DNA from: Coprobacter tertius
GTDB lineage: Bacteria; Bacteroidota; Bacteroidia; Bacteroidales; Coprobacteraceae
Reading direction: 5' to 3'
Length of the DNA stretch: 64,000 nt
NCBI RefSeq assembly: GCF_024330105.1
Contig: NZ_JANDHW010000005.1
Span: 186,001-250,000 of the forward strand
The notes below the pieces were generated by a model. That model was given only the letters and a program-made list of their open reading frames with translations. It was not told the origin of the DNA and ran no database searches. The position numbers and the translations under genes were made by a program. Shown in pieces: positions 52,322-54,680 of the stretch; the stretch's first letter is position 1; each line of letters opens with the position of its first letter.

Positions 52322-54208
52322 TCAGAATTTAAGGTCGAATCCTCCCATTACAATTGCACCGGGCATAGGATACCCTTCGTTTATAGCGTATTTTGTATCG
52401 GTAAGGTTCTCCCCCTTTACAAACAATGTGATATTTTTATCACTAGGTCCGATCCGGTAAGCTACCCTCGCGTTGAGTAAGGTATAGTTTTCTTTCAATG
52501 CGTTATCTGTAAGAGTATTCAGATACAGGTCGAATATAGATTGAACATTTACTGTCAATGTCAGCCTTTTCCAAGTATACAGCCCCTCGACAAACAATTT
52601 ATGTTCGGGTGCGGCCGTAATAATCTTGTTGGTATGCAAATAACTGTAATTAGCAGTAAAAACAAGATCTTTAAGAGCTTGTACGCTAGTTTCGAACTCG
52701 ATTCCCTTGTTATAGAATTTTCCGACATTAGACAACATACCTTTTACCGGTTGTATCATATTCTTACCATCGATATAAAACAACGTAAGATCGGCATGTA
52801 AGCGGTTTCCCCAGAAATACTGCCCCACAGACACTTCGTAATTGAGCATACTTTCGGGCTTCAGGTCTTTATTTGCTCTGGAATAGGGTAAATAAGAAAT
52901 ATATAATTCTCTCAGATTAGGACTGCGAAACCCTTTAGAGAAAGAAGCTTTTATCGTATTACCTGCAAAAGGCCTCCAAACCAAACCGGCTTGAGGCACC
53001 CATTCGCTTCCAAAAGTACTGTTGTGTTCGTAACGGACACCGGCATTCAGAGTCAACTGATTCCATAAGTCTTGTTGCATAATCGCATATCCTGCGATCT
53101 CATACACGCTTTTATCGACTATCTCTTCCCGGGTTTTATCATTAAAATAATCGTTCCAGCCATGTCCCCCCCAGTTTTTATAATCTACACCCACTGTAAA
53201 CTGATTTTGCGGCAAAACGAAGAATGACTCGTAAGCCTGTAAACCATAATTAAAATCAGTAGACCTGAAATAAAAATTTTTGGGAGACTCTTTTTCTGTA
53301 TGCCCGTCGTTGATCTTATGATTTCCCCAGTTATAAAAGAATCGTACCGCACCCTTGTTTTTCGCAAACTTATTTTCGAGAGCAGCCGATGCCGTTCCCC
53401 GCCATATTCTCATCCAATGATCGATCATGGGAGCGGTTACAGTAGCGGGATCATGCGTATCATAATACGCCAGACTAACGTCCCCGACAGCACTCAAATG
53501 CTGGTTGAAATCATAACCTACTTTCGCAAAACCATTGGTAATATTAAATTCCGAATTTTTTCGATGTCCGTCGGTACGATCATGATTAAGCGAAAAGAAA
53601 CTGTTGAAACGCCCGATCCTCACTCCGTTATTTACCATATATTTCTGAGTATTGTACGAACCATACATCACTCGGGCGTGTGTAGACACCCCTTCTTCAT
53701 GCTGGCTGCGTGTAATGATATTCACCACCCCCCCCATAGCATTAGATCCATAAAGAAGAGAACCGGGTCCTCGTATTACTTCTACCTTATCGACATCAGA
53801 AGCCACATAAGTATCGGGAAGACTGTGACCGAATATACCAGCCCATTGCGGCTGACCATCGAAGAGCATCAATACTTTATTACTTCCGCCAACTCCCCTG
53901 ATATTTACGGTGCCCGCCGACCCCGTAGAAACACCGAATCCTGTTATCCCTTTTTGGGTAACGAACAAACCGGGAACCCGTTGGGATAATACAGGTAACA
54001 ATGCCGATTCGCTGCTGCGATCGATTTCCTGCCGCGTAACCACCGAAATCGTTAAGGGAACATTATTACGATTAACCAACGTACGATTAGCCGTTACAAC
54101 GACCTGAGGTATATCGAGCGTATCAGTAACTGATTTAGCATTGAGAGTACCCGTCATAACCAGTAAACATAAGAGAATCAAGCCTCTTTCCAATAAATGT
54201 TTAATCAT
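52322..54208 (-). CDS. BtuB-like TonB-dependent receptor, NikR-linked
   Basis: Outer-membrane transporter of 628 residues. Signal peptide (LERGLILLCLLVMTGTLNA), a TonB-box-like stretch TLDIPQVVVTANR, a plug domain (about 45-165; GTVNIRGVGGSNKVLMLFDG, VEVIRGPGSLLYGSNAMGGV) and a barrel ending in GGFDLKF. There is no CarboxypepD domain and no SusD partner, which fits uptake of a metal chelate, cobalamin or siderophore. The upstream gene is a NikR-type regulator, 70 bases away with a 28-bp palindrome between them, so regulated metal uptake is likely; the metal is not known. Confidence 0.88.
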   Translation of the reverse strand: MIKHLLERGLILLCLLVMTGTLNAKSVTDTLDIPQVVVTANRTLVNRNNVPLTISVVTRQEIDRSSESALLPVLSQRVPGLFVTQKGITGFGVSTGSAGTVNIRGVGGSNKVLMLFDGQPQWAGIFGHSLPDTYVASDVDKVEVIRGPGSLLYGSNAMGGVVNIITRSQHEEGVSTHARVMYGSYNTQKYMVNNGVRIGRFNSFFSLNHDRTDGHRKNSEFNITNGFAKVGYDFNQHLSAVGDVSLAYYDTHDPATVTAPMIDHWMRIWRGTASAALENKFAKNKGAVRFFYNWGNHKINDGHTEKESPKNFYFRSTDFNYGLQAYESFFVLPQNQFTVGVDYKNWGGHGWNDYFNDKTREEIVDKSVYEIAGYAIMQQDLWNQLTLNAGVRYEHNSTFGSEWVPQAGLVWRPFAGNTIKASFSKGFRSPNLRELYISYLPYSRANKDLKPESMLNYEVSVGQYFWGNRLHADLTLFYIDGKNMIQPVKGMLSNVGKFYNKGIEFETSVQALKDLVFTANYSYLHTNKIITAAPEHKLFVEGLYTWKRLTLTVNVQSIFDLYLNTLTDNALKENYTLLNARVAYRIGPSDKNITLFVKGENLTDTKYAINEGYPMPGAIVMGGFDLKF

Positions 54209-54231: not shown

Positions 54232-54259
54232 GTAACACGTTTATAAAAAAACGTGTTAC
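54232..54259. promoter_or_regulatory. Operator-like palindrome between the NikR-like gene and the receptor gene
   Basis: A 28-bp inverted repeat with perfect 11-base arms (GTAACACGTTT / AAACGTGTTAC). Read as half-sites it is GTAACA-N16-TGTTAC, the same spacing as the E. coli NikR site GTATGA-N16-TCATAC. It begins 24 bases upstream of the receptor ATG. No T-run follows on the minus strand, so it is unlikely to be a simple terminator. Confidence 0.65.
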
Positions 54260-54278: not shown

Positions 54279-54680
54279 CTATTCTGCGCGGCTCATAACC
54301 AGTTTACCATGTTTTATATCCCTTATAGCAATCAGTTTATCCGATAATTCAGTCAAACGATGAGCCGCCCCGGTGACCGTAGCGATATGTAGACAAAAAT
54401 TACTGTTTAAATAATACTGAGCAGAAGATAAAATGACATCTTGGTATTTTTTTTGTATTTCATCGATCTTTATAGCGATAGCAGTACGACTCTGATCGTA
54501 CATAATAATAATCGTACCGGCAACAGTATGATTACATTGCCATTTTTTCTCGGCAATATTTTTCTCTATCAGGAAACGGATCGCCTGAGAACGATTGGAA
54601 AAACCGTTCTCCTGTACATATATATCGAGTGAAGTCAGTAAATCTTCCTCGAGCGAAACGCCGAATCTTTTTAAACCCAT
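54279..54680 (-). CDS. NikR-type ribbon-helix-helix/ACT regulator with altered metal site
   Basis: Transcription factor of about 133 residues: N-terminal RHH DNA-binding domain (KRFGVSLEEDLLTSLDIYV..FSNRSQAIRFLIEK) and C-terminal ACT-like NikR domain (AGTIIIMYDQ..FCLHIATVTG). Aligned without gaps to E. coli NikR as I recall it, the nickel ligands His76, His87 and His89 become Lys, Gln and Tyr; only Cys95 is kept. So it probably does not sense nickel in the usual way. The frame extends to a TTG at 54698, but an exact -7 box (54696-54703) overlaps that codon, so the Met at 54680 is the start. Likely controls the downstream receptor. Confidence 0.88.
   Translation of the reverse strand: MGLKRFGVSLEEDLLTSLDIYVQENGFSNRSQAIRFLIEKNIAEKKWQCNHTVAGTIIIMYDQSRTAIAIKIDEIQKKYQDVILSSAQYYLNSNFCLHIATVTGAAHRLTELSDKLIAIRDIKHGKLVMSRAE

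Follow-up and report, generated by a model that had tools for sequence, protein, structure and literature searches.

A NikR-family regulator with an apparently rebuilt nickel site beside a TonB-dependent receptor gene in Coprobacter tertius and related Bacteroidales

The DNA analyzed here, hereafter the window, is a stretch of 64,000 nucleotides from Coprobacter tertius (assembly GCF_024330105.1, contig NZ_JANDHW010000005.1, positions 186,001 to 250,000), in which the gene for a small NikR-family regulator is followed on the same strand by that for a TonB-dependent outer-membrane receptor, with a predicted operator between the two (Table 1). A divergent open reading frame upstream of nikR has no Pfam or NCBIfam match over cut-off, and a 198-aa frame also stands at the corresponding place in other members of the genus (L005 and L006). 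No riboswitch or other RNA family turned up when the window was scanned against Rfam.

Table 1. Coordinates of the features at the nikR-receptor locus, numbered from the first letter of the window
Feature	Position	Strand	Basis
TonB-dependent outer-membrane receptor, 628 aa, predicted target	52322..54208	minus	profile search, operator link, homologues
Predicted operator, GTAACACGTTTATAAAAAAACGTGTTAC (GTAACAC-N14-GTGTTAC)	54232..54259		pattern search, published NikR motif
NikR-family regulator, 133 aa, RHH and NikR_C/ACT domain	54279..54680	minus, ATG at 54680	profile matches, alignment, predicted model
Replaced-site segment	54387..54452	minus	alignment and codon analysis
Site codons K77; Q88; Y90; C96; H98	54450-54452; 54417-54419; 54411-54413; 54393-54395; 54387-54389	minus	
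Open reading frame, 198 aa	54813..55409	plus	

Taken by sequence, fold and operator, the window protein is a member of the NikR family, with an N-terminal RHH domain and a C-terminal, ACT-like NikR_C domain. It scores 73.8 bits against Pfam NikR_C (cut-off 22) and 110.3 bits against the full-length NCBIfam model NF003381, "nickel-responsive NikR" (cut-off 105); the match to RHH_1, at 17.1 bits, is under the cut-off of 20.5, although the full-length model is passed. The predicted model (mean pLDDT 86.9, pTM 0.63) brings up NikR structures first in a Foldseek search (2.2e-12), with the C-terminal domain matching at 1.1-1.4 Å, and the closest solved structures are the NikRs of P. horikoshii, E. 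coli and H. pylori. These matches bear out the initial annotation, which had described an intact NikR-type protein. No other NikR_C protein is encoded in the 3.3-Mb genome, and the domain was found in 96 of 393 Bacteroidales genomes sampled.

NikR is the textbook nickel sensor, and its square-planar site is formed by His-76, His-87, His-89 and Cys-95 (E. coli numbering). The nickel-site region of the window protein aligns without a gap with E. coli NikR (1q5v), placing Lys-77, Gln-88, Tyr-90 and Cys-96 at these four positions, and in the alignment with NikR structures no histidine falls on the three lost ligand positions. The loss of three of the four nickel ligands with only the cysteine left, and the gapless alignment on which that claim was first made, are thus both confirmed. 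Glu-97 of the E. coli protein is also swapped, for His-98. Judged by the tested nickel ligands, the window protein falls outside the nickel-responsive NikRs and should not inherit their name.

The altered site is common to a whole clade of gut-type Bacteroidales. A genome scan returned 80 homologous loci, mostly from Parabacteroides, Tannerella and Coprobacter, at 63-80% identity to the window protein; all 80 share an exact query peptide outside the site and none has the exact site peptide, and the 77 distinct proteins they encode were chosen independently of the site residues. Among these 77, in E. coli numbering, Ser-84 and Ser-85 are present throughout, Gln-87 in 75 (His in two), Tyr-88 in 74, Tyr-89 in 70 (Phe in seven), Phe-94 in 76, Cys-95 in 75 (Thr or Ser in the other two) and His-97 in 76 (Gln in one); position 76 is variable, being mostly Gln and in the window protein Lys, and no ligand set is strictly invariant. 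The pattern of Lys, Gln, Tyr and Cys noted at the outset in the window protein is therefore kept in its homologues as regards Gln, Tyr (or Phe) and Cys, and not as regards Lys. When four marker residues independent of the site were used as the selector, Gln-87 was found in 79 and His-97 in 80 of 83. In the family search, none of the 67 loci with His/His/His/Cys lacks Glu-97. The column comparison covered 175 aligned NikR loci, and its first counts grouped proteins by site residues and were partly circular at those columns; they were recounted on the site-independent sets given here. On these counts the new residue set of the clade is Ser-84, Ser-85, Gln-87, Tyr-88, Tyr/Phe-89, Phe-94, Cys-95 and His-97.

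On a tree of 128 columns that omits those of the site, the canonical NikRs fall together to the same side of a branch with a support of 77, and the Q-type clade has a support of 97 with a few deviants within it; the columns are few, and a single loss of the site would be enough to account for the tree. Fifteen further NikR-family proteins carry scattered residues at the site. In the 82 new-site genes the codons for Gln-87, Tyr-89, Cys-95 and His-97 differ synonymously (CAA in 51 and CAG in 31 for Gln-87, CAT in 48 and CAC in 33 for His-97) while the residues stay constant, which argues that the new site is under purifying selection. If a redundant nickel sensor were decaying neutrally in this genome, the Lys at position 76 of the window protein, where most of the clade has Gln, could be a trace of it, but this reading sits badly with a swap common to scores of sequences of this divergence, with synonymous codon use and many invariant columns, and with a genome that holds no second NikR, and we regard it as highly improbable. 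The local decay that the initial annotation had named as a threat to its reading is in this way rejected by the conservation across the clade and the synonymous codons. Rather, the nickel site has apparently been rebuilt under selection in Parabacteroides, Coprobacter, Tannerella and relatives, with operator and target kept. We found no report of a ligand-less or nickel-independent Bacteroidales NikR clade in the open-access papers searched.

The predicted operator, which starts 19 bp past the nikR stop codon and ends 23 bp ahead of the receptor start codon, has by its sequence a pair of half-sites separated by about two helical turns, as is characteristic of a NikR operator. A signal predicted for delta-proteobacterial NikR has the form GTGTTAC-[N13/14]-GTAACAC, reversed to GTAACAC-[N13/14]-GTGTTAC for some genes (PMC545781). 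The exact operator occurs once in the C. tertius genome, at the position in Table 1, and never in 100 shuffled versions of the window. Of the 50 Q-type loci with a receptor downstream, 39 have the two half-sites spaced exactly 21 bp apart with no more than one mismatch, compared with 0.02% of shuffled sequences, and any other spacing gives half-site pairs at two or fewer of the 50.

In many loci, above all those of termite-gut Tannerella, the receptor gene is not beside nikR. A search of 24 genomes with other nikR neighbors gave the exact operator in five, each time upstream of a homologous receptor (42-65% identical), and no good operator in the remaining genomes of the 24. Because these unlinked operators precede the homologous receptor in five cases of five, they constitute an independent test of the link between regulator and target. 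Operators with up to two mismatches number 157 genome-wide against 151 in a reversed-pattern control, and as such loose matches show no excess we claim no wider regulon.

A second operator lies just upstream of nikR itself in several canonical and degenerate-site relatives (9 of 15 of the latter, at up to two mismatches), and none was found at up to three mismatches upstream of 50 Q-type nikR genes, which have therefore probably lost self-regulation. A regulator whose dosage is not self-tuned would likewise suit a ligand-free repressor, in which the pocket residues serve only to stabilize the tetramer, the operator is always occupied to the same degree and the receptor level is set through nikR expression or a competing factor, and a classical effector site is indeed not evident. 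That Gln, Ser, Cys and His are conserved precisely at former ligand and neighboring positions is hard to explain by structure alone, however, and steady repression of a single receptor gene would have little selective value, and we consider such a repressor rather unlikely.

Against the B12-receptor model TIGR01779 the receptor scores 152 bits (cut-off 599.7) and against the BtuB model NF007926 127 bits (cut-off 836), so far below both that its identity as a cobalamin receptor is not supported. The proposal that the regulator controls a BtuB-like receptor has accordingly fared differently in its two parts: control is strongly supported by the conserved 28-bp operator, which recurs in unlinked genomes, and the identification with BtuB is not supported. 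Homologous receptors adjoin canonical NikRs that bear the nickel ligands, some with the same operator; other neighbors at canonical loci are ABC transporter genes, a DsbD_2 membrane protein and FmdE. FmdE-family proteins recur beside canonical Bacteroidales NikRs at eight loci, often near the receptor, and at another locus the gene after a canonical nikR encodes a distinct TonB receptor, of 803 residues with a carboxypeptidase-regulatory-like N-terminal domain, and has an operator ahead of it.

His-128 and His-297 of the receptor are invariant in 62 homologues (49 Q-type-linked and 13 canonical-linked) and are candidate metal ligands. A complete [NiFe] hydrogenase operon is present in the genome of the window and includes hypB, hypF, hypD and hypE; this uptake-hydrogenase operon (locus L200, 1251-11620) has a hypB with a His-rich N terminus, and the exact NikR-type operator is not found there. 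A full-length [NiFe] large subunit is encoded in nine of 12 sampled Q-type genomes and urease in one more; urease, present in only one genome of the genus, was rejected as a shared nickel enzyme. Given that receptor homologues adjoin canonical NikRs, that the two histidines are invariant and that the genome encodes a nickel enzyme, nickel or a nickel chelate appears the most likely cargo of the receptor; it is not certain, since none of hydrogenase, urease and LarC was detected in two Q-type genomes (G207 and G180).

A receptor that looks nickel-type, in a genome that uses nickel, would also be in keeping with a regulator that senses nickel (or cobalt or zinc) through a rebuilt site, in which Cys-95 and His-97, together with Gln-87 and Gln-76 or Tyr-89, bind the metal in another geometry. 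Cys-95 and His-97 are nearly constant in the clade, and Cys and His in other combinations serve as ligands in nickel sensors that do not belong to the NikR family. Nevertheless, with the square-planar set of NikR gone these are just two good ligands, and each gives way to other residues in the few members noted above; a metal sensor of this kind seems to us unlikely.

The degenerate-site relatives point in a further direction. In six of them, with RRTS, LRTS, IRIH, TRL-, AQFL and SHFY at the ligand positions, a LarE homologue follows the regulator, and LarC also follows in five and LarB in four. The larE, larC and larB genes are those for the nickel-pincer nucleotide, which itself supplies three nickel ligands. 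No lar genes lie near canonical NikR at the loci read in this analysis, and LarC is encoded on another contig in about 25 genomes whose NikRs are canonical or high-scoring. As the six regulators fall in two tree clades, the association does not represent six independent events, but it does suggest that, in more than one lineage of the NikR family, regulators that lost the nickel site were also rewired. A NikR-type operator stands just ahead of nikR at most of these six loci, and one genome has two degenerate NikRs, one (IRIH) beside lar genes and the other (SGYY) beside a TonB receptor. A search of the open-access literature for NikR with lactate racemase gave no such clade. As the window protein's own target the nickel-pincer cofactor genes were rejected, no LarC being found in the sampled Q-type genomes. 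Because degenerate-site relatives sit in a nickel-pincer-nucleotide operon, the rebuilt pocket might conceivably sense a nickel-containing or nickel-linked metabolite and not the free ion, with the operator kept. We hold this to be improbable; if true, NikR would have passed from sensing an ion to sensing a small molecule or a cofactor while it retained its operator.

On balance we think it somewhat probable that the window protein is a NikR-derived repressor of a probably nickel-type receptor, whose rebuilt pocket binds an effector other than square-planar Ni(II). An RHH regulator derived from NikR would have given up square-planar nickel sensing and kept its fold and operator, and from the predicted operator just before the start codon it would repress the receptor; the pocket at the old nickel site would bind another effector, which may be a small molecule or else a metal in another coordination, and the bound effector would set the affinity for the operator. 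Sensing of a different metal or small ligand, as first suggested from the substitutions, fits a pocket that has been rebuilt and conserved.

Free nickel is thus probably not the signal that the regulator reads; its predicted operator and receptor target are unchanged, and the Bacteroidales clade would offer a natural experiment, with one predicted target, on signal change in a metalloregulator. For Parabacteroides, Coprobacter, Tannerella and their relatives, the finding also marks out a receptor that is likely to be of the nickel type. The NikR name is meanwhile transferred automatically, the standard annotation model calling the window protein nickel-responsive despite the lost site.

Compared with the nickel-responsive NikRs of E. 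coli, P. horikoshii and H. pylori, the window protein is alike in its RHH and NikR_C fold, in the gapless alignment of the site, in the family cut-offs passed and in the NikR-type geometry of its operator; it differs in that three of the four Ni(II) ligands and Glu-97 are swapped for another conserved set. In Helicobacter, FrpB4, FecA3 and HH0418 of H. hepaticus are TonB receptors that are regulated by NikR or predicted to be so. There, as in the window, the target or predicted target of a NikR-family protein is an outer-membrane receptor, although Helicobacter NikR keeps the nickel ligands and the window protein does not. With the predicted NikR regulon of the delta-proteobacteria (PMC545781) the window operator, a reversed form of that motif, shares identical half-sites and spacing; the delta-proteobacterial motif precedes a nickel ABC transporter and related genes, whereas that of the window precedes a TonB receptor gene and would be read by a regulator without the nickel site.
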